Assembly (NCBI GenBank): GCA_030650095.1
Contig: JAUSEE010000040.1
Span: 1-32,102, forward strand
Direction: 5' to 3'
Source: Candidatus Buchananbacteria bacterium
GTDB taxonomy: Bacteria; Patescibacteriota; Patescibacteriia; 2-01-FULL-39-33
Length of the DNA: 32,102 bases
Made by a program: the position numbers and the translations under genes
In this document: positions 1,078 to 16,992 of the stretch, piece after piece
Position numbering within the stretch: position 1 is the first letter of the stretch
Layout of the letters: each line of letters opens with the position of its first letter
The notes under the pieces: model-generated
The model's database searches: none
What the model was told of the DNA's origin: nothing
The model's input: only the letters and a program-made list of their open reading frames with translations

Positions 1078-2229
1078 ATGAAAATCGCTTTTATTTTTGA
1101 CATGATCTATCCGTTCAGCATAGGCGGCAGCGAGGTTAGGATTTATGAACTAGCCAAAAGATTATCCGTAAAACATGAGATTCATCTTTTTGGAGTCAAG
1201 ATGTGGGATGGACCGGACATTATAAAAATAGACAATATTACCCTGCACGGGGTTTGCCACTACGGGCGAGTTTACGGCTTTTCTGGCAAACGTAAAATAA
1301 TAGAACCTCTAAAATTCTCTTTGGCTGTTTTTCCGGCCCTAATGAAAGAAAGATTCGATCTAGTCGATTGCACTACTTTTGTCTATTTCCATTGCTTTAC
1401 GGTTAAATTGTATTGCTGGCTGACTAAAACACCGCTGATTTTTTCCTGGATGCAGTATTGGGGCGATTATTGGTACAGTTATCTTGGCTGGAAAGGATTT
1501 TTAGGCAAAACGCTAGAAAATATGTCGAAATATTTGACCAAAAATCATGTGGCTATTTCAAAGACTACCAAAAATGATCTGGTTCTAGCCGGAGTCAACG
1601 AAAAAAATATTTTCATAAATTATTGCGGGGTGGATTTTGGTGAATTAAAGAAGGCGCGAGATGCTATGACGGGCAAAGAAAAAAATTGGGATATCATTAC
1701 CGTCGCCCGATTAAATCATCAGAAAAATGTTTCTTTACTCCTGCAAGCTGCAGCTGTTGTCAAAAAAAAATGGCCTGAAATAAAAATAATAATAATCGGC
1801 GACGGACCGGATCGGAAAAATCTGGAAGCGCTGACAAATGATTTAGGATTAAAAGACAATATTTCATTTTCCGGATTTGTAAAAGACTACCAAGCTGTTC
1901 ATAAAGAAATGCTATCGTCTAAAATATTTGTTTTGCCTTCTATCTTGGAGGGGCTGGGGATAGTAGTTTTAGATGCCAATGCTTGCGGCCTGCCGGTAGT
2001 GGTGATCAAACATAAATGGAATGCGGCCCAAGAACTGATCGAGGCAGGCAAAAACGGCTTCATTTCGGAAAATAATGCCGATGATTTGGCTCAAACAATA
2101 TCGCGCATTTTAACCGATGAAGAACTAAGAAAATCTATGGGCAATTTTGCCGAAGTTAAAGCGAGAGATTTTGATTGGGATAAATTAGCCATAGAATTAG
2201 AGAATTATTATTTTAAAATTACCAAGTGA
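1078..2229 (+). CDS. Glycosyltransferase family 4 (GT-B fold)
   Basis: This 383-aa protein is probably a cytoplasmic retaining glycosyltransferase that uses a nucleotide sugar. The N-terminal Rossmann half begins MKIAFIFDM with the GGSE loop at residues 16-19. The C-terminal half has the donor-binding pattern VARLNHQKN, then the strand IIIIGDGPD, then the EX7E region. The second acidic residue of that motif is Asp rather than Glu (E291...D299). An AAGGA Shine-Dalgarno (1065-1069) sits 8 nt before the ATG, better than most genes here. It heads the operon with the kinase-like and nucleotidyltransferase genes, and its stop overlaps the next start by 4 nt. Donor and acceptor are unknown. The left repeat copy ends only 19 nt upstream. 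Confidence 0.88.
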   Translation: MKIAFIFDMIYPFSIGGSEVRIYELAKRLSVKHEIHLFGVKMWDGPDIIKIDNITLHGVCHYGRVYGFSGKRKIIEPLKFSLAVFPALMKERFDLVDCTTFVYFHCFTVKLYCWLTKTPLIFSWMQYWGDYWYSYLGWKGFLGKTLENMSKYLTKNHVAISKTTKNDLVLAGVNEKNIFINYCGVDFGELKKARDAMTGKEKNWDIITVARLNHQKNVSLLLQAAAVVKKKWPEIKIIIIGDGPDRKNLEALTNDLGLKDNISFSGFVKDYQAVHKEMLSSKIFVLPSILEGLGIVVLDANACGLPVVVIKHKWNAAQELIEAGKNGFISENNADDLAQTISRILTDEELRKSMGNFAEVKARDFDWDKLAIELENYYFKITK

Positions 2230-3215
2230 TAACAAAGTTACTAATACACGGCGTAGGTATTTCAATTGAAGCAGAAGAAGAAATATCTTCTTGGCTTAAC
2301 CATGATTATATTCGCTATATAAAACCGGAGTTAGAACCAGACGCTGTAAAATTAAAATTCAAGCTTATTGAGGAGCAACCTAACTACAGCGATTTACCAG
2401 AACTCATCGCCTCCACCTACCATAATGATTATATTGTATACGAAAATAAAAGCAGTCGAATAATAGATTTCTTTGGCCAGGCTTTAGCTATCTATAATCT
2501 AAGTGGCCGATTAAAGTCAGTGGAAATCCAGTCTTCGACCAGGTCTAAATTATACGAAATTTTCTGCCTGGCTTTTGAAACTCTTTTAGGCGATGAATTG
2601 GATAAAATAGGCTGGCATCGAATCCACTGTTTGGCACTGGAAAAAGATGGCGAAGGCACGGTTGTCCTCTTGCCACCCGGTGCCGGCAAAACCACGCTTG
2701 CCATGAAATTTTTGGAAAATACTAGGGTAAAAATATTGGCCGAGGATTTAGCCATTATTAAGAATGGCGAATTAAGAAGCCTGCATTTCCGTTGGGGGAC
2801 AAGGGACTTGGAAACAGATTTGGACGGACGGCTGGCTGAGTCTGGCCACTCTCCAACTAAGAAGCTATTCAATCCCGATCCAGCGGAACTGGCTGTTAGC
2901 GCTCGGCCGAAAAATCTAATCATGGGCAAAAGGATCTCTTCGGCGCGAAGTGAGATAAAAAATATTTCCAAGATTAAAATAATAATCCCTCTTTTCAAAA
3001 GTATGGTTCTGGGACTTGAACTTCAGCAAGCCCTGGCTTTTTTTATTTTAAGAAATTTTAAGGACGGATTTTTTAAGTTTTCTCTCAGTTTTTCACGGTT
3101 GACCGCTATGATTAAATTAATAATGAAATGCCAAACTTATGAATTTTTAATTGGCAATGATATAGAAAAAAATTATGAAACATTATCCAGTTTTGTTCAA
3201 CCAAAGAAATTATAA
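2226..3215 (+). CDS. HPr kinase-like P-loop ATPase
   Basis: This 329-aa protein carries a clear Walker A, PPGAGKTT (residues 150-157), just after a strand (GTVVLLP). A second acidic motif, ILAEDLAII (E173, D174), sits where HPr kinase/phosphorylase has its Asp-rich Walker B-like element. The arrangement resembles HprK-related kinases found in surface-polysaccharide and peptide-modification clusters, not true HprK. No HPr or PTS gene is nearby, and I do not see the canonical HprK signature. The start is GTG at 2226, overlapping the previous stop as GTGA, which implies translational coupling. Residues 1-130 are not recognisable. HprK-like proteins next to nucleotidyltransferases recur in such clusters, so the protein may phosphorylate the same acceptor that the four downstream enzymes act on; that is inference. 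Confidence 0.7.
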   Translation: MITKLLIHGVGISIEAEEEISSWLNHDYIRYIKPELEPDAVKLKFKLIEEQPNYSDLPELIASTYHNDYIVYENKSSRIIDFFGQALAIYNLSGRLKSVEIQSSTRSKLYEIFCLAFETLLGDELDKIGWHRIHCLALEKDGEGTVVLLPPGAGKTTLAMKFLENTRVKILAEDLAIIKNGELRSLHFRWGTRDLETDLDGRLAESGHSPTKKLFNPDPAELAVSARPKNLIMGKRISSARSEIKNISKIKIIIPLFKSMVLGLELQQALAFFILRNFKDGFFKFSLSFSRLTAMIKLIMKCQTYEFLIGNDIEKNYETLSSFVQPKKL

Positions 3216-3249
3216 GCTAATATACCTCATTTTTTAATTAACCCATAAG

Positions 3250-4755
3250 ATGATCCAAAAAATACGCCAAATTATAATTTATCTGGTTAGGAATTTTTTT
3301 CTGGCGACGAGGAATATAAAACTATGCCGTTATTTTGGCATCGGCCTTTACAAAATCGGTTTGCATTATGCAGTTAAGAAATTGGCAAAAATTCCGGAAA
3401 CGGAAGCCATTTATTCCAGCACTGATTTTAATGATGAAGATTTCTTGCCGGGTGAAAGCGACATTGATTTAGTGGTGGTTTTAAAGAAAGAAACAGCGCC
3501 TGACATAATTTTTGACCTAAACCAAATATTAAACAAAGCTAAGAACGGAATAAATTTTTATTTCCCTTTTTTCCAAGATATATTTTTATTTGATGCTCAA
3601 GAATTCTATGACATTTGTCATAGATCAGAAAGAATTGAACATGAAAAAAAGGATTTTGACAATCTAATTCTTATCTGGGGCGAAGATAAAAGGAAAAATT
3701 TGACTCCCGGCCGGCAAGAAGCAGCGCCATCTAAGAGAACAGCCAGAATCGTTTTGATGGTATTCATGCTTCTTGTTATTGAGAACCACTGGGGGCAAAA
3801 AAATCTTAGGCGAGTCAGGAAGTTCTTTGGCCATATTTTGTATCTCGGTTTTCACTTTAAATACCACCGAAAAGCGAAAAGTGTCCAAGACTATCTAGTT
3901 TATATGGCCGAGATAGGCGTTCCCGCTCAATTCATTGATATTTTCCCCAAATTAAAGGAATTTGATTTTGATTATCAGTATGAATTATTACCACTGATGG
4001 TATATTCGGTAATCAAGATTTACGAAAGCATAGATAAGTTTGAAAAAATAAAAAACGATTACACAACGGAGATAAGCGACAACTTTACAAAGAAGCCGAG
4101 CCAAGAATTGCTGGATTTTTTTGAGTCGGTTGATAAAAAAATGATTAAATCTATTTATGCGCTTTCTTCTCCATATTTTAGAAACTGCGTTAATTGGCAG
4201 CAGAATATATACATCATCCTCAATGACGATATCGGTTATGGCGATTTCAAAATATTTTTTGATTCATTTTTTGAAAATTTAACATTACTGGAATTGTTTC
4301 CTATCCGTTCAAATCCTTTGGCCAGGATATTTAGAAAAAAAATGCCCGCATTACCATCCATTTATTTTTTGACCGATAAAACTTTTAAATCGCCACATTT
4401 TTTCAGGGAGAATGAGGCTGGGGAATTAGACTTGTTCGGCTACAAGATATTCGGCGACAACATTGATTTTTCGGCCGCGTCTAACCGTTTTGTGGGAAAA
4501 TTATTTGAAAATGAAAATAATATGGGCTGTTATTCGCGAGCGTCGGAATTTTTGTCTTTTGACGATGAAATCATCGATGCCATAACAAAGGCTGTTAAGT
4601 TTTTCAGAATCGCTGAAGAAAAAAGGCTATTCTTTTATGGCGACATCGACAAAAAATACAAGGAAATTTACGGCGAAGACGGCCCGGATATTAACGACAA
4701 AAAAGATATTTATCGGTTTTTTTATGAACATGCGATTAAGAATAGATTTAAATAA
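3250..4755 (+). CDS. Nucleotidyltransferase-fold protein, paralogue A1
   Basis: First of four tandem paralogues (501 aa). A hydrophobic/basic N-terminal stretch (residues 5-45) precedes a DNA polymerase beta-type nucleotidyltransferase motif, PGESDIDLVVV, with the two metal-binding aspartates at D71 and D73. The usual Gly-Ser of this superfamily appears as Tyr-Ser (Y55-S56), and a clear third catalytic acid is not identified. Residues ~95-150 end in IWGEDKR, followed by a mainly helical segment. Residues ~298-410 look like a second, degenerate copy of the fold: Y303, then 16 residues, then I320-Y321, the same spacing as Y55 to I72-D73, with N319 and Y321 where the aspartates should be. The C-terminus has YGDI (463-466) and YGEDGP, shared by all four proteins. 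Transfer of a nucleotidyl group is a family expectation; the substrate is unknown. Confidence 0.72.
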   Translation: MIQKIRQIIIYLVRNFFLATRNIKLCRYFGIGLYKIGLHYAVKKLAKIPETEAIYSSTDFNDEDFLPGESDIDLVVVLKKETAPDIIFDLNQILNKAKNGINFYFPFFQDIFLFDAQEFYDICHRSERIEHEKKDFDNLILIWGEDKRKNLTPGRQEAAPSKRTARIVLMVFMLLVIENHWGQKNLRRVRKFFGHILYLGFHFKYHRKAKSVQDYLVYMAEIGVPAQFIDIFPKLKEFDFDYQYELLPLMVYSVIKIYESIDKFEKIKNDYTTEISDNFTKKPSQELLDFFESVDKKMIKSIYALSSPYFRNCVNWQQNIYIILNDDIGYGDFKIFFDSFFENLTLLELFPIRSNPLARIFRKKMPALPSIYFLTDKTFKSPHFFRENEAGELDLFGYKIFGDNIDFSAASNRFVGKLFENENNMGCYSRASEFLSFDDEIIDAITKAVKFFRIAEEKRLFFYGDIDKKYKEIYGEDGPDINDKKDIYRFFYEHAIKNRFK

Positions 4756-6324
4756 ATGATAGGCAAAATACGCAAGATTATAATTTATCTGGTTAGGAAT
4801 TTTTTTATTCGTACCAACTCAATCAGAATCTGCCGATACCTTGGCTTGTTTCTTTATAAACTTGGGCAGGTTTTTGCTGTTGCTCGACTTAAAAAAATTC
4901 CTGGAGTGGAGTCTATTTATTCCATGACCGATCTCACAAGCTGGACTTTTTTGCCAGGTGAAAGCGATATCGATTTGGTTTTAGTCGTCAAAAATTTTAA
5001 TTCGCAAGAATTCATAAATTTTGCTGAGCAATTTTCCCATGCCACAAAAACAATTTATTATTTTTTCCCGTTTTTCCAACATATGCCGGTTTACACCGAT
5101 GAGGTGCTCGAGGCGGCCAACGAAAGTTGGTCTTTGGAGGCGACGCAAAAAACCAAAGATTTCCGTAATTGGATCCTGTTGTGGGGTCAGGATAGGATCA
5201 GTAAATCGACTCCGCCGGATCATCAAGAACCTTCCCCAGTAATAGTGAGACTTATTTATGAGCGATTATTTTTGGAAATCTGCCGCTTTAAGTGGGAACC
5301 AAAAAGACAACTTAGGCGGATATATCTCAATTTTTTTGACATTATGAGGCAATCCTTCATTGCGGTTAAGAAACGTGACGCCCGAAGCGATGATGAGTAT
5401 GTTTCTTATATGCGTGAAATCGGTCTGCGGCCGGAGTTTATAGATTTATTTTTAAAATTACCCGATTGCCATTTCCGACGCGATTATGAATTTTTGCCCC
5501 TCGCTCTTTTTTCGGCGCTAAAACTTTTGGAAAACATAAAAGAACCAGTCAAACACGATCTTTCCCATCCAAAAATCGTCGTTGATAAGAAGATAGAAAT
5601 CACCCTCGCCGAAGAAGCTGTGGAATTTGTTAACCAGATTGACAAAGTCGGCATCAGCTCAATTTATTGCGGACAATATATACACTGCCTTTTTGGCTTT
5701 CAAAATTTATATTTTATTTTGGAAAACGATTTGCCGTATGATATCTTTCGAAAAGAATTTGATAATATTTATAATAAATTAAATATCTTAAAGACACTAA
5801 GAGCTAATTCTACATTAGGAACATTAAAAGCCGTCAAGCATAATGGCCAAGATCCAAAAGAGGTATTCCCTTTAATTATGACAAAAAGAATGATGGAATC
5901 CCTCTATCTTATAAACGGCCAATGGGGCTTAGAAGGTTTAGAGATTGGCCTATTCGGCAAAAAAATTTTTGGGAAAGACATTGACTTTTTAAGTTTCTGG
6001 AACGGCAATTACGATGACGGTCTAACAAAAATAGAATATCATTCTTTAGCCACATTTATGATAACCCTTTATCAAATTGCTTTAAATAAAAAAAATAGGG
6101 CCACGGCTTTTGGCCTGATCAAGAAAACCGTAAAATTTTATCAATTATATGAAAAGACTAACACAATTTATTATGGCGATATCGACAGGCGATATCGGGA
6201 AAATTTCGGCCACGACGGGCCGGCCATTGATAATATGGCGGAGTTTATGAAAGCAATCGAGATTTTTTACAGACATGAGAAAAAGAGGATTAGTCACTTG
6301 TTAAGCGAAAAGGAAATAAAATAA
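4756..6324 (+). CDS. Nucleotidyltransferase-fold protein, paralogue B1
   Basis: This 522-aa protein has the same architecture as its left neighbour but is clearly of a second subtype (B), closer to the fourth gene. The first 73 residues align without gaps across all four, with PGESDIDLVLVV carrying D71 and D73. The middle segment (FKWEPKRQLRR, about residues 178-188) and the block DRRYRENFGHDGP near the end are B-type. The presumed second domain reads SIYCGQYIHC, then QNLYFIL, with Asn and Tyr replacing the two aspartates. The ATG abuts the previous TAA with no spacer (TAAATG at 4753-4758) and no good Shine-Dalgarno site, so coupled termination-reinitiation is likely. It might form a heteromer with the adjacent A-type protein; that is inferred only from the repeated A-B order. 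Confidence 0.7.
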   Translation: MIGKIRKIIIYLVRNFFIRTNSIRICRYLGLFLYKLGQVFAVARLKKIPGVESIYSMTDLTSWTFLPGESDIDLVLVVKNFNSQEFINFAEQFSHATKTIYYFFPFFQHMPVYTDEVLEAANESWSLEATQKTKDFRNWILLWGQDRISKSTPPDHQEPSPVIVRLIYERLFLEICRFKWEPKRQLRRIYLNFFDIMRQSFIAVKKRDARSDDEYVSYMREIGLRPEFIDLFLKLPDCHFRRDYEFLPLALFSALKLLENIKEPVKHDLSHPKIVVDKKIEITLAEEAVEFVNQIDKVGISSIYCGQYIHCLFGFQNLYFILENDLPYDIFRKEFDNIYNKLNILKTLRANSTLGTLKAVKHNGQDPKEVFPLIMTKRMMESLYLINGQWGLEGLEIGLFGKKIFGKDIDFLSFWNGNYDDGLTKIEYHSLATFMITLYQIALNKKNRATAFGLIKKTVKFYQLYEKTNTIYYGDIDRRYRENFGHDGPAIDNMAEFMKAIEIFYRHEKKRISHLLSEKEIK

Positions 6325-7842
6325 ATGATAAATAAAATACGTGAAAAAATAATTTATCTGGTTAGGAATTTTTTTCTGATGACAAGGAATATAAAACTAT
6401 GCCGTTATTTTGGCATAGGCATTTATAAAATTGGCCTGCATTATGCGATTTATAAATTAAAAAAAGTTCCGGAAATCGAGGCAATCTATTCGGCCACTGA
6501 TTTTTTTAGTGATGATTTCTTACCTGGTGAAAGTGACATCGATCTTGTGGTGGTTTTAAAAGAACAAACAGAGCCGGATAAAATTTTTGATATGAGAATA
6601 AAACTGGATAAAATAATTGATAAGATTATCTTGTATTTTCCTTTTATTTCCGAACCGGAATTTTTTGGTGCCGAAGAGTTTGACTTTGACAATATGTGCG
6701 GTAAGCCGGGAAAAATAAGGAGATACAAAAAAGATTTTGGCAATCTATTTTTCATTTGTGGAGAAGACAAGAGAAAAAATCTAACACCCCATGAACAAGA
6801 AACCGTTCCCCCAAAAGCAATGTTTAGATTTTTTTTAGCCGCGCTTTTATTTTTTTCCCTTGAGAATATCTCGGGCAAAAAGAATTTAAGACGGGCCAGA
6901 AAGTTTTTTTCCTATGTTTTATATTTGGGATTTTTTTTTAAATATCGCCGGAGAGCCATAGATAACCAAGAATATTTGAGATATCTGAAAGAAATTGGCG
7001 CTCCGACTGAATTTCTCACCCTCTTTCCGGGATTAAAAGAGTTTGATTTTAATTATCGGTACGATCTTTTACCGATGATTATTTTTACGGTTATTAAAAT
7101 TACTGAAAGTCTGAATAATTTTGAGGAGGAAAGCGAAATTTATGAAGAAGAAATTACCGGTGATTTTACAATTAAATTAAGTGACGAACTGGAAGGACTT
7201 CTATATTCTGTTGACAAAAGACATATATGTTCTATCTACCACATGCCTAGTTGCGCGTACTGGGGTGAGTATTCAACTCAAAGCATTTATGTCATTATCC
7301 CGGACGGCATTAGATATGAGGATTTCAAAGCAGTATTTGATTCTTTTTTTGATAAAGTAAAATCGGCGAGATTGCCATGGATTACTCCCCCTATATTTGA
7401 TCCTTATTTAGGAATATTTGATCCGGCACTTCACCGCACGCCGTTTATCTACTTACTTACCGAGAAAGCGTTAAAATCTCCATATTTTTTCAACGGCAAC
7501 GAAGCGTCCGAACTTGATTTATTTGGTAATAAAATATTCGGCAAAAAAATCAATTTTTCCGGGTTAGCTCCGAGATCTGCCAGCAAGACAATTGAGAAGA
7601 ATGGGAGTATCGGTCGTTACATCCAAGCGAGATTTTTACAGACACTGGATAATCGGCACCTAAGAAATTTAATACAAAGAATTAAATTTCTTAGAATTGC
7701 CGAAGAAAAAAATCTCTTTTTCTACGGCGATATTGAAAAAAAATACAAGGAAATTTACGGCGAAGACGGCCCGGATATTAACGACAAAAAAGATATTTAT
7801 CGGTTTTTTTATGAGCACGCTATTAAAGGAAGATTAAAATAA
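6325..7842 (+). CDS. Nucleotidyltransferase-fold protein, paralogue A2
   Basis: Second A-type copy, 505 aa. It keeps LPGESDIDLVVVL (D71, D73), the CGEDKRKNL element near residue 150, and the C-terminal YGDI with YGEDGPDINDKKDI. It is A-like throughout, and a 77-nt stretch near its 3' end (7738-7814) is identical to 4651-4727 in A1 even though much of the rest has diverged. The degenerate second domain reads CSIYHMPSC, then QSIYVII, with Ser and Tyr at the aspartate positions. It starts directly after the previous TAA (TAAATG at 6322-6327); an AAGGA lies about 11 nt upstream, inside the preceding gene. The substrate is unknown, as for its paralogues. Confidence 0.7.
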   Translation: MINKIREKIIYLVRNFFLMTRNIKLCRYFGIGIYKIGLHYAIYKLKKVPEIEAIYSATDFFSDDFLPGESDIDLVVVLKEQTEPDKIFDMRIKLDKIIDKIILYFPFISEPEFFGAEEFDFDNMCGKPGKIRRYKKDFGNLFFICGEDKRKNLTPHEQETVPPKAMFRFFLAALLFFSLENISGKKNLRRARKFFSYVLYLGFFFKYRRRAIDNQEYLRYLKEIGAPTEFLTLFPGLKEFDFNYRYDLLPMIIFTVIKITESLNNFEEESEIYEEEITGDFTIKLSDELEGLLYSVDKRHICSIYHMPSCAYWGEYSTQSIYVIIPDGIRYEDFKAVFDSFFDKVKSARLPWITPPIFDPYLGIFDPALHRTPFIYLLTEKALKSPYFFNGNEASELDLFGNKIFGKKINFSGLAPRSASKTIEKNGSIGRYIQARFLQTLDNRHLRNLIQRIKFLRIAEEKNLFFYGDIEKKYKEIYGEDGPDINDKKDIYRFFYEHAIKGRLK

Positions 7843-9387
7843 ATGATATACAAAATACGCCAAATTATAATTTATCTGGTTAGTAATTTTTTTATTCGTA
7901 CCCGTTCGATCGAAATTTCCCGATATTTTGGTCGAGTTCTATATAAGTTTGGTCAAGTTTTGGTAATTGCCAGACTGAAAAGAATTTCCGGAATAGAATC
8001 TATTTATTCCATGACCGATCTCAAGAGCCGAACTTTTTTAGCTGGAGAAAGCGATATTGATTTAGTTTTAATCGTTAGAAATTTTAATTCGCCAGAATTC
8101 ATAAATTTTGCTGAGCAATTTTCCAAGGCCACAAAAATGATTTATTACTTTTTACCGTTTTTTAAACACATGCCGGTTTTTAATAACCAGACACTTAAAG
8201 ACGTAAACAGATATTTATCTTTAGAAGCGCCACGAAAAAACAAAGATTTTCGAAATTGGATTTTCTTGTGGGGAGAAGATAAAATTAAAAGGTTAATCCT
8301 GCCTAGTCACCAAGAAGTATCACCGACCGTAGTACGATTCAGTTATGAGGCGCTTATTTTAGAAATTTGTCGTTTCAAATGGGAGCCAGGTCGGCCACTC
8401 AGACGTGCTTATGCCAATTTTTTTGAGATTATGAGACAATCCTTTATCTCTGTAAAAAAACGAGATGCTCAAGATAACAATGAATATGTTTTTTATATGA
8501 AGGAAATTGGTTTGCCGCCTAAGTTTATCGATTTTTATCTAAAATTGCCTAGCCTGAATTTTCAGCGCCATTATGAATTTTTACCCCTAACCCTTTTTTC
8601 GGCGCTTCGACTTATGGAAAATATAAAGGAACCGAGCAGACATCATTTTTCCAATCCTGATATTGTCGTAGAGAAAAAGATCGAAGTTATTCCCGCCGAG
8701 GAAGCGATGGACTTTGTTAGGCGGATTGATAAAACCAGTATCAGTTCAGTTTACTGTGGGCAGTATATACATTGCTATCCTGATTATCAAAATTTATACA
8801 TTATTTTGCGCGACGATTTGCCGTACGAGGTTTTCCAAAAGGAATTTAATAATATTTACGACAAGTTGGATTTTTTACCGACACTTAAAATTAATTCTAA
8901 ATTAGGAATGCCAAAAGCAGCCGAATATGACAAAAGTGTCGCCAAAGAAATATTTCCCCTAATACTGACCAAAAAATTGCTATACTTGCCCTATTTATTG
9001 AACGGCTTATGGGGATTGGAGTGTCTGGATGTCGGGCTTTTTGGTAAAAAGATTTTCGGGGAAGAGGTTGATTTTCTTCGGATCCAAAATGGCGACTACA
9101 ACCAAGGCCTACTTAAACAGGAGCATCATTCTTTGGTTACTTTAGCCGTAACAATTTACCAGATTTTTTTAAATGAAAAAGTTAGAAATGAAGCCTTTGG
9201 TCGAATTAGAGAGACTATTAAATTTTATCAATTATTTGAAAAAACCAACACTATTTACTATGGCGATATCAACCGACGGTACCGGGAAGTTTTTGGCCAT
9301 GACGGGCCAGATATCAACAATATCGCCGAATTCTCAAAAGCGACAGAGATTTTTTATCAATTTGAGAAAAAAAGAATCAGCAGTTGA
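7843..9387 (+). CDS. Nucleotidyltransferase-fold protein, paralogue B2
   Basis: Second B-type copy, 514 aa, closing the A-B-A-B array. The active-site motif is AGESDIDLVLIV (D71 and D73 kept, Pro67 changed to Ala). B-type landmarks are FKWEPGRPLRRAY in the helical middle segment and INRRYREVFGHDGP at the end, where YGDI is kept but the following Asp is Asn. The second domain reads SVYCGQYIHC and QNLYIIL, again without aspartates. An AAAGGAAGA stretch in the end of the previous gene gives a plausible ribosome site for the abutting ATG (TAAATG at 7840-7845). No frameshift or stop interrupts any copy, so all four are apparently under selection. Confidence 0.7.
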   Translation: MIYKIRQIIIYLVSNFFIRTRSIEISRYFGRVLYKFGQVLVIARLKRISGIESIYSMTDLKSRTFLAGESDIDLVLIVRNFNSPEFINFAEQFSKATKMIYYFLPFFKHMPVFNNQTLKDVNRYLSLEAPRKNKDFRNWIFLWGEDKIKRLILPSHQEVSPTVVRFSYEALILEICRFKWEPGRPLRRAYANFFEIMRQSFISVKKRDAQDNNEYVFYMKEIGLPPKFIDFYLKLPSLNFQRHYEFLPLTLFSALRLMENIKEPSRHHFSNPDIVVEKKIEVIPAEEAMDFVRRIDKTSISSVYCGQYIHCYPDYQNLYIILRDDLPYEVFQKEFNNIYDKLDFLPTLKINSKLGMPKAAEYDKSVAKEIFPLILTKKLLYLPYLLNGLWGLECLDVGLFGKKIFGEEVDFLRIQNGDYNQGLLKQEHHSLVTLAVTIYQIFLNEKVRNEAFGRIRETIKFYQLFEKTNTIYYGDINRRYREVFGHDGPDINNIAEFSKATEIFYQFEKKRISS

Positions 9388-9401
9388 TTAACTATAAACA
9401 A

Positions 9402-10247
9402 ATGAAAGAAATAAAATACAAATTTTTCATGAGTAAGGCCATTCTCTTCTTTAAAACAGATCGGTTGATTGGTTTATTGGGGATAATTATTAAAAAATTA
9501 TCGCCCAGTTTGTATTCGACGATAAAAATAATCGACAAAGATAGAACTCGAATATTTGATTTGAAAAACAAAAACCTCAGAGCCAAAATCAAGTGTATTT
9601 ATAATAAAAATAATCGATTAATTTTTACCCGCCACATTATTGATGAAATCTGGAATACCAATACTTATAATCCACCAGGATTTGAACTAAAAAATAATGA
9701 CACAGTTATAGATATTGGCGCCAACATTGGTATTTTTTCTGTTTATGCCGCTAAGCAGGCACCGGCCGGAATAATTTATGCTTACGAGCCGGAACCTGAC
9801 AATTTCAAATTGCTGGAAGAAAATATTGTTATAAATCGTTTGACTAACATTAAACCTTTCAAACTTGGAGTCGGAAGAAATGAAAAAGTAAAATTATTAA
9901 AATCTAATTTTTCCAGTGCCAGTCACAGTTTATATGGCCAAATTGGCGGTGCCGTAGATATTGATTGTGTGTCGTTAACCAATATCTTTGACATCAATCA
10001 GATAGATTGTTGTCATTTTTTGAAACTAGATTGTGAGGGGTCGGAATATGAAATCCTGTTCAATTTACCGGACGAATATTTTCGTCGAATAAAGCTAATT
10101 TCCTTGGAGTACCATGATTTTTTCAGCGATAATCGAAATGGAGGCAACTTAAAAATTTTTTTGGAGAGCAAAGGCTTTATTGTTACAATAAAGCCAACCA
10201 TTGCCAAACTTGGCCAGATTTATGCTAAAAATAAAACGTTAATTTAA
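9402..10247 (+). CDS. FkbM family SAM-dependent methyltransferase
   Basis: About 281 aa from the ATG. The SAM-binding motif I is VIDIGANIG (residues ~102-110), followed by the acidic ribose-binding strand YAYEPEPDNF, and later by LKLDCEGSEYEIL, the hallmark of FkbM methyltransferases. These O-methylate sugars or polyketides, and in polysaccharide clusters they often cap or decorate glycans. It ends the seven-gene operon, which suggests it methylates the product of the upstream glycosyltransferase/nucleotidyltransferase genes. An alternative TTG start at 9384 would overlap the previous stop (TTGA) and add six residues; neither start has a good Shine-Dalgarno site and I prefer the ATG. Only 15 nt separate it from the convergent gene. 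A weak, interrupted stem (GGCA/TGCC, 10248-10270) may terminate transcription. Confidence 0.87.
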   Translation: MKEIKYKFFMSKAILFFKTDRLIGLLGIIIKKLSPSLYSTIKIIDKDRTRIFDLKNKNLRAKIKCIYNKNNRLIFTRHIIDEIWNTNTYNPPGFELKNNDTVIDIGANIGIFSVYAAKQAPAGIIYAYEPEPDNFKLLEENIVINRLTNIKPFKLGVGRNEKVKLLKSNFSSASHSLYGQIGGAVDIDCVSLTNIFDINQIDCCHFLKLDCEGSEYEILFNLPDEYFRRIKLISLEYHDFFSDNRNGGNLKIFLESKGFIVTIKPTIAKLGQIYAKNKTLI

Positions 10248-13013: not shown

Positions 13014-14381
13014 ATGAAAAGGAAATATTTCAATTCTTTGAACTTATTTTTAATTTTTGCGTTCTTGCTAACAGCCGGTTTTGGCTGTAAAAATCCGGGA
13101 GCTGATGTTCAAGAAAAAATGAAGCCGATAGAATTAAACTACTGGCGAGTATTTGATGATCAAGATTCTTTTAATGACATTATTGCCAAATACAAACTGC
13201 TCCATCCCAATATAAAAATAAATTACCGCAAGTTTAGGATTGAAGAGTATGAGCAGGCTATCTTAGAAGCTCTAGCCGAAGACCGCGGACCGGATATTTT
13301 AAGCATCAATGAAAGCGATTTGAGAAAATACCAAACCAAACTGGCGTCCATGCCGGCTGAGATAGTTATGGCCTACCAATATACCAAAGGGACAGTCAAA
13401 AAAGAGGTGGCTTATGAGCTTAGGACCAAAAAAAGCCCGTCGCTTAGGGAAATAAAAGCTAATTTTGCCGATACGGTTTATGATGATGTGGTTTTAGACG
13501 GCCAGGTTTACGGCCTGCCTATGAGTTTGGAAACACTGATAATGTTCTACAACAAAGACATACTAAACAAATCAGGCATCGCTCAAGTGCCCAAGGACTG
13601 GAAAGCCTTTCAGGAAGCGGTTCAAAAATCAACCAGATTCGACACTACCGGCCGGATAATCCAATCGGGGTCAGCACTGGGAACCGGCTATAATATTGAA
13701 AGAAGTTTTGATATTATTTCTGTCTTAATAATGCAAAACGGAGCAGTAATGATAGATGGCAATGGCTTTGCCTCTTTTAACCAGGCCACAGCCGACAAAT
13801 ATTTTCCCGGCCTGGAAGCCATCAGATTCTATTTGGATTTCTCCTCGCCGGTAAAAAGCGTCTACTCTTGGAATGCCGATATGCCCAACTCATTCGAATC
13901 ATTCCTAAGCGGTAAAGTGGCTTTTATGTTCGGTTATAATTATCACCTGCCCAGCATTAAATCTCGGGCGCCCAAACTTAATTTAGGCCTGGCACCCATT
14001 CCTCAAGTCAGTCAAGACAACCAAACAAATTATGCTAACTATTGGGTGGAGAGTGTTTCTAAAAAATCAGCCCACCAAAGCGAGGCTTGGGATTTTATCA
14101 TTTTTGCCAGCAGTAAAGATAATGTCACTTCTTATTTAAACACCACTGGCCGGCCCACGGCCTTGAAGGAACTGCTCAATACTCAAATGGATAATGAAAA
14201 TCTTTATCCCACCTCTCTTCAAACCCTAACGGCTAAAAATTGGTACAAAGGCAAAAACCAGCCGGCGGCCGAAGAAGCTTTGAAAGAGATGATAGAAGCC
14301 CTGCCAACAGCTGTTGAAGACCGAGATTTTTCTGACATCATTAAAAATGCCATTTCCAAAATTAACCAGACCATAAGATGA
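13014..14381 (+). CDS. Extracellular solute-binding lipoprotein (ABC family 1 type)
   Basis: This 455-aa protein has a basic start, a hydrophobic signal segment and a lipobox-like GFGC with the likely lipidated Cys at residue 25. The mature part follows the family 1 (sugar-type) solute-binding pattern: an early YWRVFDDQDSF strand-helix, LAEDRGPDILSI, YGLPMSLETLIMFYNKDIL, and late WDFIIFASSKDN. Such proteins capture a ligand outside the membrane and normally deliver it to an ABC permease. No permease or ATPase gene is in the window. Instead the stop overlaps the start of a pilin-like gene (ATGA), so the protein is produced together with the pilins. It may serve as a surface adhesin or binding subunit of that structure, or may use a distant transporter. 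Confidence 0.85.
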   Translation: MKRKYFNSLNLFLIFAFLLTAGFGCKNPGADVQEKMKPIELNYWRVFDDQDSFNDIIAKYKLLHPNIKINYRKFRIEEYEQAILEALAEDRGPDILSINESDLRKYQTKLASMPAEIVMAYQYTKGTVKKEVAYELRTKKSPSLREIKANFADTVYDDVVLDGQVYGLPMSLETLIMFYNKDILNKSGIAQVPKDWKAFQEAVQKSTRFDTTGRIIQSGSALGTGYNIERSFDIISVLIMQNGAVMIDGNGFASFNQATADKYFPGLEAIRFYLDFSSPVKSVYSWNADMPNSFESFLSGKVAFMFGYNYHLPSIKSRAPKLNLGLAPIPQVSQDNQTNYANYWVESVSKKSAHQSEAWDFIIFASSKDNVTSYLNTTGRPTALKELLNTQMDNENLYPTSLQTLTAKNWYKGKNQPAAEEALKEMIEALPTAVEDRDFSDIIKNAISKINQTIR

Positions 14382-14809
14382 AAATAAAAAAAGTCCTAAT
14401 TCTACCGCTCATTATTTTATTCTTATTCTTATCAGTTCAAGTTGCTTCGGCTGTTAGTTTAATAGGTGAAGATTTAGCAAATAGATGCGCCAGCAAGGAG
14501 GGTTGTGGCCTGTGTGATTTTATCGGTTTATTTGTCACTGGCGCTGATATTTTAGTGGGTCTAAGCGGTACTTTTGCTATTTTAATGTTTGTCTATGGCG
14601 GACTGGTTTTAATTACCGCCTACGGCAACGATTCCCGAATAACCTGGGGCAAAAATATTTTAACCGCAACTATAATTGGCATACTGATAGTTTTTTTCGC
14701 CTGGACGCTGGTAAATGTTATTATTGGCGCGCTCTTCGGCCATCCCAATTTTGAGTGGTTTAACACTAATGGCGTCTGTAGTGAGGGGGTAAGCGGGCAA
14801 AGCCATTAA
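14378..14809 (+). CDS. VirB2/TrbC-like small membrane protein, divergent member
   Basis: This 143-aa protein has a signal-like N-terminus with likely cleavage after ASA (residue 25), a short extracytoplasmic segment, and two hydrophobic helices (GTFAILMFVYGGLVLITAYG and an ATIIGILIVFFAW helix). The turn between them has the DSRITWGKN sequence instead of the GGDSxKVxKAKD turn of its four downstream relatives. Cysteines 37, 43 and 46, plus one near the C-terminus, are unique to this member and could form disulfides. Translation is coupled to the solute-binding protein by a 4-nt overlap. The two-helix layout is that of conjugative or type IV secretion pilins; a true pilus role here is inferred. 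Confidence 0.75.
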   Translation: MKIKKVLILPLIILFLFLSVQVASAVSLIGEDLANRCASKEGCGLCDFIGLFVTGADILVGLSGTFAILMFVYGGLVLITAYGNDSRITWGKNILTATIIGILIVFFAWTLVNVIIGALFGHPNFEWFNTNGVCSEGVSGQSH

Positions 14810-14862
14810 CTAATCAATTGGGAAGTAGGGATAAATCTCTTTTATAAACATGCAAAATAAAG

Positions 14863-14868
14863 TATAAT
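14863..14868 (+). promoter_or_regulatory. -10 element upstream of the second pilin-like gene
   Basis: TATAAT at 14863-14868, with only a poor -35 (TTTTAT) 17 nt upstream. It would start a message near 14875 with a leader of ~84 nt. Read-through from the preceding gene is also possible, because no terminator is seen in 14810-14860. Confidence 0.35.
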
Positions 14869-14899
14869 TCAAGTACCAACTTATAAACAATATAACCTT

Positions 14900-14954
14900 C
14901 GCGTTAATTGGTTAACGGTAGAAACAGTAACGCGGCACTTAGGAAAGGGGGTGA
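14900..14954 (+). promoter_or_regulatory. Structured leader and strong Shine-Dalgarno of pilin-like gene 2
   Basis: Two mutually exclusive stems can form. CGCGTTA (14900-14906) can pair with TAACGCG (14928-14934), or CGTTAA (14902-14907) can pair with TTAACG (14912-14917) around TTGG. Then comes GGGGGTGA (14947-14954), 7 of 8 to the full anti-Shine-Dalgarno complement and 4 nt before the ATG at 14959. It is the best ribosome site I found in the window and fixes that start against the longer frame from 14908. Confidence 0.5.
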
Positions 14955-14958
14955 AAAA

Positions 14959-15342
14959 ATGAACAAATTAACATTAAAAAAGATTTGCGCCGGATTATTA
15001 ACAGTTATGGTCTTGTCTATTTTCGCTGTACCAGTAATCGTTTCTGCGCAAGGTCTTGATTTAGGGCTTAACGAGGCTGGAGACATTGGTTTGGCATCTG
15101 GTGATTTGAAAGCATCTATTAATTCCATTATTCAGCTTATTTTGAGCTTCTTGGGAATATTAGCGGTTATTATTATTCTTTGGGGCGGATTTATGTGGAT
15201 GACGGCTGCCGGTGATGAAGGCAAGGTTGATAAAGCTAAAAAACTTATTATTTCCGGTATCGTGGGCATAGTAATTATTTTAGCTGCTTACATTATTGCT
15301 AGCTACGTTATTACCACCGTGGGCGGACAATTAGAATCCTAA
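14959..15342 (+). CDS. VirB2/TrbC-like pilin-type protein
   Basis: This 127-aa protein has a signal peptide ending near VSAQG, a short outer segment, helix 1 (LILSFLGILAVIIILWGGFMWM), a polar turn (TAAGDEGKVDKAKK) and helix 2 (ISGIVGIVIILAAYIIASYVI). This is the small two-helix layout of VirB2/TrbC pilins and of the pilin-like conjugal-transfer proteins common in mycoplasma and CPR genomes. The very strong Shine-Dalgarno suggests it is the most abundantly made member, a likely major subunit. Four further relatives surround it, but no VirB4-type ATPase or other secretion gene is in the window, so conjugation itself cannot be claimed. Confidence 0.82.
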   Translation: MNKLTLKKICAGLLTVMVLSIFAVPVIVSAQGLDLGLNEAGDIGLASGDLKASINSIIQLILSFLGILAVIIILWGGFMWMTAAGDEGKVDKAKKLIISGIVGIVIILAAYIIASYVITTVGGQLES

Positions 15343-15349
15343 ATATTAC

Positions 15350-15391
15350 AATATAGGTTAACGGGGGTTCGCCCCCGTTAACTGCTATATT
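15350..15391 (+). other. Long intercistronic hairpin between pilin-like genes
   Basis: GTTAACGGGGG (15357-15367) and CCCCCGTTAAC (15372-15382) pair perfectly around TTCG. The stem extends by AATATAG/CTATATT (15350-15356 with 15385-15391) across a TG bulge, giving 18 bp in all. No T-run follows, so it is not a classic terminator. It ends 5 nt before the next ATG and would overlap the ribosome landing site, so it could lower translation of the next gene or protect the upstream message. Confidence 0.7.
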
Positions 15392-15396
15392 AACTT

Positions 15397-15753
15397 ATGA
15401 AAAAAATAATAGTAAAATTATCATTAATAATATCTTTGGTTTTGCTAATTTGGCCCAGCCTATCTTACGCTCAACTGGCTAATTTAAAAAACGCGACGCC
15501 AGACTTGCTTCAGAGAGGAACTATTTATGACATTGTGGGCACTTTTATCCAAATACTTTTGGGTTTTATCGGTGTTTTGTTTATAGTTCTGGTGATTTAC
15601 GGCGGATTCAGTTGGATGACAGCCGGCGGCGATAGCAGTAAAGTTCAAAAAGCCAAGGATACTATTATAAAAGCCACTATTGGTCTGGTTATTATTCTGG
15701 CCTCTTATGCCATTGTCTACACGCTTACCAGCCAATTGTTGGGGGAAACCTAA
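15397..15753 (+). CDS. VirB2/TrbC-like pilin-type protein
   Basis: At 118 aa this is the shortest of the set. The signal peptide ends near SYAQL. Helix 1 is ILLGFIGVLFIVLVIYGGFSWM, the turn is TAGGDSSKVQKAKD, and helix 2 is IIKATIGLVIILASYAIVYTL. The conserved GGDSxKVxKAKD turn places it with the next two paralogues. No Shine-Dalgarno is visible, and the ATG lies 5 nt after an 18-bp hairpin. This suggests lower or regulated expression compared with the gene before it. Confidence 0.8.
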   Translation: MKKIIVKLSLIISLVLLIWPSLSYAQLANLKNATPDLLQRGTIYDIVGTFIQILLGFIGVLFIVLVIYGGFSWMTAGGDSSKVQKAKDTIIKATIGLVIILASYAIVYTLTSQLLGET

Positions 15754-15784
15754 TTTTTAAAAATTAATAATAAACTAAAAAACA

Positions 15785-16183
15785 ATGAAAAAAATAGCTA
15801 AAATCGCTCTTAGTTCATTGATCCTAACCCTGGTTTTGGCCACGGTAGCGGCCTTGTCGCCAGTTAGTGTTTTAGCGGACGACACTATTCAAGGAGGTTT
15901 AGATTCTTTGAAACTCGGAGCGCCAGAACTGCCAAGCGGCACCACTGATCTAAAACTGGTTATAGGTCAGATTATTCAAATCTTCTTGGGATTTTTAGGA
16001 GTTATCGCCGTAGTCCTGATTATTTATGCTGGTTGGCTCTGGATGTCGGCCGGGGGCGATAGCGCCAAAGTAACCAAAGCTAAGGATTACATTAAAAATG
16101 CCATTATCGGCATTGTTATAATCTTGGCCGCTTACATTATTACCAGTTTTGTCTTGACACAACTCACTACGACTTTAGCATAA
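15785..16183 (+). CDS. VirB2/TrbC-like pilin-type protein
   Basis: This 132-aa protein has a signal peptide ending near VLADD, an outer segment with LPSGTTDL, helix 1 (IFLGFLGVIAVVLIIYAGWLWM), the turn SAGGDSAKVTKAKD and helix 2 (IGIVIILAAYIITSFVL). It is closest to the gene at 16609: the turn and both helices are almost the same in protein and similar in DNA, pointing to a recent duplication. It follows the previous gene after 31 nt without a visible ribosome site and is followed by a terminator at 16199, so it ends the first pilin transcript. Confidence 0.82.
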   Translation: MKKIAKIALSSLILTLVLATVAALSPVSVLADDTIQGGLDSLKLGAPELPSGTTDLKLVIGQIIQIFLGFLGVIAVVLIIYAGWLWMSAGGDSAKVTKAKDYIKNAIIGIVIILAAYIITSFVLTQLTTTLA

Positions 16184-16198
16184 TAAGATTACAAAAAT

Positions 16199-16229
16199 AA
16201 AAAACGCCTTATTTGTTAAGGTGTTTTTT
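16199..16229 (+). terminator. Rho-independent terminator of the lipoprotein/pilin operon
   Basis: AACGCCTTA (16203-16211) pairs with TAAGGTGTT (16217-16225), one G-U pair, 5-nt loop, followed by T-rich sequence. An A-run precedes the stem, so it may also work from the other side. Confidence 0.75.
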
Positions 16230-16291
16230 ATTTGCCTAACTAAACCCTAAGCGTTAGCCTATAGATGAGGTCTTTTCCGCTGTCTTCATTT

Positions 16292-16381
16292 GTCATTGCG
16301 AGCCCGCCTGTCAGCAGACAGGCTTGCGAAGCAATCCCACGGCTATGGAATACGAGATTGCTTCACTACGCTCGCAATGAC
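16292..16381 (+). repeat. CATTGCGAG palindromic repeat, copy 1
   Basis: Bounded by GTCATTGCGAG (16292-16302) and its reverse complement CTCGCAATGAC (16371-16381). Inside are matching GAAGCAATC/GATTGCTTC segments and a small stem GCCTGTC/GACAGGC. Repeats of this CATTGCGAG...CTCGCAATG form are widespread in bacterial intergenic DNA. No coding potential. Confidence 0.75.
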
Positions 16382-16409
16382 ATTTAAAATCGTTATAAAT
16401 AGCAAAAGT

Positions 16410-16518
16410 GTCATTGCGAGGAGTCTATTTTTAGCAGACGACGCGGCAATCTTATAATTTAATCCGCAAGATTGCGGAGCTTGTTCCGAGCATAGCGAGG
16501 AATCTCCCTCGCAATGAC
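16410..16518 (+). repeat. CATTGCGAG palindromic repeat, copy 2
   Basis: Same outer arms, GTCATTGCGAG (16410-16420) and CTCGCAATGAC (16508-16518), in tandem with copy 1 and 28 nt away, but with a different interior containing GCAATCTT and AAGATTGC. The two copies fill most of the 425-nt gap between pilin-like genes. The rest of the gap holds the terminator before them and a promoter after them. Confidence 0.75.
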
Positions 16519-16550
16519 GCTATGGCGTGGCAGTTTATTTGATTAGTTAT

Positions 16551-16579
16551 TTGTCAGAAACAGTTAAATAAACTATAAT
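16551..16579 (+). promoter_or_regulatory. Strong sigma70-type promoter of the last pilin-like gene
   Basis: TTGTCA (16551-16556, 5 of 6) and TATAAT (16574-16579, 6 of 6) are 17 nt apart. The start would be near 16586, leaving about 23 nt of leader before the ATG at 16609. A second TATAAT at 16596-16601 lies too close to the gene to matter much. Confidence 0.75.
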
Positions 16580-16608
16580 TATTAAAGTAATAATCTATAA
16601 TAATCAAT

Positions 16609-16992
16609 ATGAAACTAAATTTAAAAATAATATTGTGCTTTATGCTTCTGGCCACAATATTATCTGTGACAACGATTCATCAAGTTCAAGCTAATGTTAT
16701 ATTGGACGGGATTGAAGATGCGGTTAGAGGCACGGATTTGCCCAGCGGCGAAATCATCCTGCCAGTAGCCATTGGACGAATTATTCAATTGCTTCTAAGC
16801 TTCTTGGGTGTTCTGGCAGTAGTTTTAATTATTTATGCCGGTTATATGTGGACCACAGCTGGTGGCGACAGCGCTAAAGTAACTAAAGCCAAGGATTACA
16901 TTAAAAATGCAATTATCGGTATCATAATAATCATGGCTTCTTACATTATTACCAGCTATGTTATTGAGAGGATTACCGAAACCCTGCAGTAG
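16609..16992 (+). CDS. VirB2/TrbC-like pilin-type protein, separately transcribed
   Basis: This 127-aa protein has a signal peptide ending near VQANV, an outer segment with LPSGEIIL, helix 1 (LLLSFLGVLAVVLIIYAGYMW), the turn TAGGDSAKVTKAKDYIKNA and helix 2 (IGIIIIMASYIITSYVI). It is a near-twin of the gene at 15785, but a terminator, two palindromic repeats and its own strong promoter separate the two. Its expression is therefore uncoupled from the rest of the pilin set, perhaps to set subunit ratio or to switch between related subunits. A terminator follows at 17018. Confidence 0.82.
   Translation: MKLNLKIILCFMLLATILSVTTIHQVQANVILDGIEDAVRGTDLPSGEIILPVAIGRIIQLLLSFLGVLAVVLIIYAGYMWTTAGGDSAKVTKAKDYIKNAIIGIIIIMASYIITSYVIERITETLQ

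Follow-up and report, generated by a model that had tools for sequence, protein, structure and literature searches.

A tandem array of four proteins with a nucleotidyltransferase-like N-terminal domain in a glycosyltransferase operon of a Candidatus Buchananbacteria bacterium

NTP_transf_5 (PF14907) is an uncharacterised nucleotidyltransferase (NT) family of HprK/PqqD-type systems. LicD members, which belong to the NT superfamily, use cytidine diphosphate (CDP) conjugates (PMC11666461), and in the case of the lasso peptide pseudomycoidin the gene for the kinase PsmK is found with a gene for the NT-like protein PsmN (PMC9266682). Here we describe a 32,102-bp stretch of DNA (the window), the whole of contig 58 in the 1.16-Mb, 62-contig genome of a Candidatus Buchananbacteria bacterium, which carries an operon with four tandem NT-like paralogues, A1, B1, A2, and B2. 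The operon is read from the + strand in the order GT4 glycosyltransferase, HprK-like gene, A1, B1, A2, B2, and FkbM methyltransferase. As the best explanation of the A and B proteins as a whole, we tentatively propose that they are surface-glycan decorating transferases, members of a fast-evolving, genus-restricted family within the Pol-beta-type NT superfamily; the glycan-decorating role is supported by the operon that they share with the GT4 and FkbM genes. The likeness to LicD would lie in this mode of action, an NT fold decorating surface glycans, since LicD (PF04991) gave no match to the array proteins up to E=10 and was not found in the 57 relatives searched.

The open reading frames (ORFs) of the kinase-like gene and of the four paralogues were found where an earlier note on this DNA had placed them. 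A1 (3250-4755, 501 aa) and A2 (6325-7842, 505 aa) belong to subtype A, and B1 (4756-6324, 522 aa) and B2 (7843-9387, 514 aa) to subtype B, so that the subtypes alternate along the array as A-B-A-B, all on the + strand; the start codons of B1, A2, and B2 stand immediately behind the stop codon of the previous gene (TAA ATG). Pairwise identity is 56.5% between A1 and A2 and 66.0% between B1 and B2, compared to 32-35% between A and B proteins. Because the A/A and B/B values lie far above the A/B values, we conclude, in agreement with the earlier note, that a two-gene A-B unit was duplicated. Its descriptions of an N-terminal alignment of 73 columns without gaps and of GESDID with D71 and D73 in all four paralogues proved equally accurate, and each paralogue has C-terminal YGDI and G-DGP blocks.

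The evidence for an NT fold comes from the N-terminal domain. Since no family model passed its cut-off (the best score was that of NTP_transf_2 for A2, at E=0.012), we compared this domain with a reference profile made by aligning 25 NT proteins of related Patescibacteria that had been found with PF01909. The hhalign comparison gave Prob 90 (P 1.6e-6) over residues 42-83, a match that spans two strands and the turn between them, whereas 100 column-shuffled versions reached Prob ≤3.2; when the NT profile was run over the ORFs of 13 stretches, A1 was matched at 2e-4 and A2 at 5e-4. The NT core of A1 lies at codons Y55-D73 (YSSTDF...GESDID, 3412-3468, + strand), located by pattern match, and the equivalent cores of the other three genes, likewise pattern matches on the + strand, lie at 4918-4974, 6487-6543, and 8005-8061. 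An AlphaFold model of B1 residues 1-165 (pLDDT 72, pTM 0.67, core blocks mostly 72-92) displays a helix at 23-45, strands at 51-56 and 72-78, a helix at 84-103, and strands at ~107-114 and 140-144. Searched with Foldseek against all PDB chains, the model has the putative nucleotidyltransferase 2rff as its top match (prob 1.00, E 1.9e-3), and a Pol-beta NT protein ranks second in the viral library, with a weak E of 0.1. Taken together, the profile match and the model give moderate support to an NT core within the N-terminal ~150 residues only. The proposal in the earlier note that the entire ~500-aa proteins adopt the NT fold therefore stands for this N-terminal part and is too strong for residues ~150-500, which match nothing. 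The N-domain resembles NTP_transf_2 (PF01909), of the Pol-beta NT superfamily, in its strand order and its second-strand DxD, but the paralogues differ from that family by Thr-Asp in place of Gly-Ser, ~350 extra residues, the lack of an invariant third acid, and scores below cut-off everywhere. A separate idea, that the C-terminal half is a degenerate second NT domain arising by internal duplication, came from the predicted strand order and an SxY...LY-I-DD pattern; it was not supported, at Prob 3.1 versus shuffles of up to 2.0, and the C-terminal half did not match the NT profile.

Relatives were sought with family profiles in overlapping samples within Patescibacteria (95 relatives, 381 class genomes, and 380 phylum genomes). 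Full-length members number four in the window's genome and one in G001, a genome of the same genus, and occur nowhere else in the sampled class and phylum genomes; no member was found in G002, the third genome of the genus. The pattern Y-x-x-T-D...SD[IV]D recovered from 257 class genomes the five known members and three unrelated-looking matches. Scans of genome contigs with A1 found no NT relatives, with patterns too strict to recover even the G001 copy, and scans of viral contigs and plasmids found none either. The array family is a divergent branch of a known fold, restricted to one genus, and not a new category. All five known members have D71 and D73, the metal-binding acids of the DxD on strand 2, and T58, D59, K134, N138, G144, and D146 are likewise unchanged among them. 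The first 50 residues bear a net charge of +9 to +11, and a helical structure is predicted for them; these features suggest that a basic helical leader touches the membrane.

Several results weigh against glycan-decorating transferases of the NT superfamily. None of the four paralogues matched a Pfam or NCBIfam model over its cut-off, and residues ~150-500, the middle and C-terminal regions, had no profile or structure match. The full-length AlphaFold model, built from five sequences, was poor (pLDDT 46), rendering its Foldseek result meaningless; the TM-score of the N-domain model to 2rff was 0.40, or 0.54 when normalized to the target length, and the Foldseek matches that follow 2rff are unrelated MamM domains. 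The uniformly sub-threshold family scores and the failed full-length model would suit array genes of a different fold, in which the GESDID match is a local convergence, but we consider this very unlikely given that the match covers two strands and a turn with a strong shuffle contrast and that the top structural match of the N-domain is an NT. At the putative active site, the GS/GG motif after strand 1 is not kept in any of the five members, T58-D59 being aligned to Gly-Ser by the profile alignment, and the candidate third-acid column, which was placed by eye, holds D/E in A1 and A2 and His in B1, B2, and the G001 protein. Judging from these residues, activity could be lost through T58-D59 and the variable third acid, above all in B. 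The same two substitutions favor the idea that the proteins are NT-fold pseudo-enzymes or nucleotide-binding regulators, which would have given up transfer and would serve the glycan machinery as subunits for binding or scaffolding. This is the less likely interpretation in our estimation, because D71 and D73 persist in every copy and because, in the RelA/SpoT synthetase site, GR stands where GS would be and one acid is missing (PMC11646218); the GS/GG motif is hence not strictly defining, and the altered site may still be active. The surroundings of the lone NT homologue in G001 also bear on the question, as no recognisable glycosyltransferase or kinase gene was present in the ~20 kb read, the missing glycosyltransferase being the point that counts here. 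The gene adjoining this homologue (L008 13533-14480, G001:C2) encodes HIPKTGG and FFRSP motifs, read by eye as typical of 3′-phosphoadenosine-5′-phosphosulfate (PAPS) sulfotransferases, and has no Pfam sulfotransferase match. On the strength of its motifs, this sulfotransferase-like neighbor would again be a decorating type of enzyme, and we count it in favor of the glycan-decorating role.

The DNA of the array bears signs of both constraint and exchange. In the middles of A1 and A2, codon identity at conserved residues lies close to the 0.44 expected of random synonymous codons, and these saturated synonymous sites, together with four intact ORFs of >500 codons, therefore indicate purifying selection on old copies. 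Near their 3′ ends, A1 and A2 share a perfect 77-bp match (4651-4727 on the + strand in A1; gene position 1402 in A1 and 1414 in A2); shorter perfect matches, the longest of 30-32 bp, lie near the 5′ ends, A-to-B gene pairs included. This identical DNA at the gene ends suggests that, besides constraint, the copies have recombined with each other, and such recombination would explain in part the gap-free N-terminus. Apparent 60-bp “repeats” at the gene junctions were discarded as one genomic stretch counted twice. An array whose copies are conserved at the ends, diverge in the middle, and show signs of recombination is also what a conflict or toxin-antitoxin-like module might present, with protein-modifying NTs (like the MNT of HEPN-MNT) multiplied and diversified by selection, and a weak match of A2 to PDC-S09 (E=1.1e-3) lies over the NT motif. 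To this alternative we attach only a slight probability: the array has an NT core in common with the NTs of HEPN-MNT toxin-antitoxin systems but differs from them in that its ~500-aa proteins are not minimal NTs, its neighbors are the enzymes of a glycan operon, and no HEPN or toxin partner was identified beside it. HEPN was matched neither in the Pfam-scanned proteins nor, using PADLOC, in the array, and the PADLOC (defence) and PHROGs (phage) libraries returned nothing convincing.

The genes flanking the array confirm the earlier assignments of a GT4 enzyme and an FkbM methyltransferase. The GT4 glycosyltransferase (1078-2229, + strand; Pfam Glycos_transf_1, E=9.6e-43) is the first gene of the operon, and the FkbM-family methyltransferase (9384-10247, + strand; TIGR01444, E=3.4e-26, over cut-off; PF05050, E=9.1e-17) is the last. 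Between GT4 and A1 lies the gene for the HprK-like P-loop kinase (2226-3215, + strand), whose GTG start overlaps the GT4 stop and which is separated from A1 by 34 nt. The protein contains H134, a Walker A motif GAGKT with K155, and E173-D174; H134, K155, and D174 align in register with six HprK-like homologues, whose own matches to Hpr_kinase_C lie below cut-off, and this bears out the earlier identification of an HprK-like gene upstream of the array. With HprK-related kinase A (TIGR04352) it has in common the P-loop region and the His-Lys-Asp pattern of HprK-like proteins, but only 47 residues were matched (E=7.4e-4) and the score was 18.7 bits against the 200 needed to pass. A search for HPr (PF00381) found it in 7 of 14 controls but in neither G000 (98% complete) nor G001, which makes an HPr kinase an unlikely identity for the window protein.

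Whether the kinase and the NT proteins form one system can be judged from their relatives. The earlier note had proposed such a system, in which a surface glycan, lipid, or peptide would be phosphorylated and nucleotidylated or phosphodiester-linked. It would work in the manner of PsmK/PsmN, and the proposal is favored by the adjacency of kinase and array in the window, with its 34-nt gap, and by the lasso-peptide precedent for a kinase with an NT-like protein (PMC9266682). The likeness to PsmK/PsmN is that of a kinase gene beside an NT-like gene, but the annotated neighbors in the window include no lasso genes. In G001, the only relative with both genes, a 49% identical ortholog of the kinase lies directly downstream of the same GT4 (51% identity), while the NT gene is on a different contig, >120 kb from either contig end, so that kinase and NT are not paired there. 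Five genomes (G153, G356, G003, G230, and G060) contain more distant HprK-like genes, which lie next to GT2 or GT1/UGT-type genes or in their vicinity, and the NT profile found no NT gene on the stretches of these five loci. The linkage on which the proposal depended is absent both in G001 and at all five HprK-like loci, and the array proteins gave no match to NTP_transf_5 up to E=10. We regard a joint system as unlikely; on the evidence of G001 and the five loci, the conserved association is that of kinase and glycosyltransferase, not of kinase and NT.

Other gene arrangements were noted along the way. In G060 (C17), a divergent HprK-like gene lies between UDPGT-like and Glyco_trans_1_3 glycosyltransferase genes (L097 1660-4884). 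A cluster that recurs in Patescibacteria combines an F420-0 gamma-glutamyl ligase (CofE)-like gene, an archaeal-type S-adenosylmethionine (AdoMet) synthetase, an HprK-like kinase, and a GT2, and several copies add an HD-domain gene, a shikimate dehydrogenase-like gene, a xylose isomerase/Gfo-Idh-MocA fusion, and a metallo-beta-lactamase; copies were identified by Pfam at L093 317-4951 (G003:C22) and L094 6640-14878 (G230:C14) and by eye at L025 4152-12127 (G356:C4) and L024 8837-14201 (G153:C13). Elsewhere in the window, a second tandem array (14378-16992) consists of five successive genes matching T4SS_pilin (PF18895), downstream of a gene for an extracellular solute-binding protein. The right end of the contig (28311-31737) contains dnaA and dnaN, and the window is therefore probably near the replication origin; GC content falls there to 26-30%.

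The membrane contact, donor, acceptor, chemistry, and division of labor between A and B that we infer for the glycan-decorating transferases would be as follows. The N-terminal ~150 residues would comprise a basic, probably membrane-apposed helical leader and the NT core, and residues ~150-500 would form a separate domain that may bind an acceptor or partner. In a metal-dependent, LicD-like reaction, the A and B proteins would transfer a nucleotidyl or phospho-substituent onto a cell-surface glycan or its lipid carrier, with each subtype having its own acceptor or with one serving as the catalytic partner and the other as an altered one. The GT4 and the HprK-like kinase would work together, the latter most likely phosphorylating the substrate of the GT4 step instead of being an obligate partner of the NT proteins, and FkbM would methylate. 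A more specific version is a long shot: the Thr-Asp NT family would act as an A/B heteromer (A with a third acid, B altered), linking a phosphodiester substituent to the Patescibacterium's surface glycan, and the family would owe its diversity to recombination among the tandem copies.

These results correct a tempting kinase-plus-nucleotidyltransferase interpretation of the locus, in which the conserved unit is instead a glycosyltransferase with an HprK-like kinase. The four array genes offer a concrete set for biochemical tests. Little is known about the surface chemistry of Patescibacteria, which has a bearing on host attachment; if the proposed role is true, a genus-restricted NT family with a changed motif, arranged as a tandem of four genes within a glycan operon, would extend the known uses of this fold.

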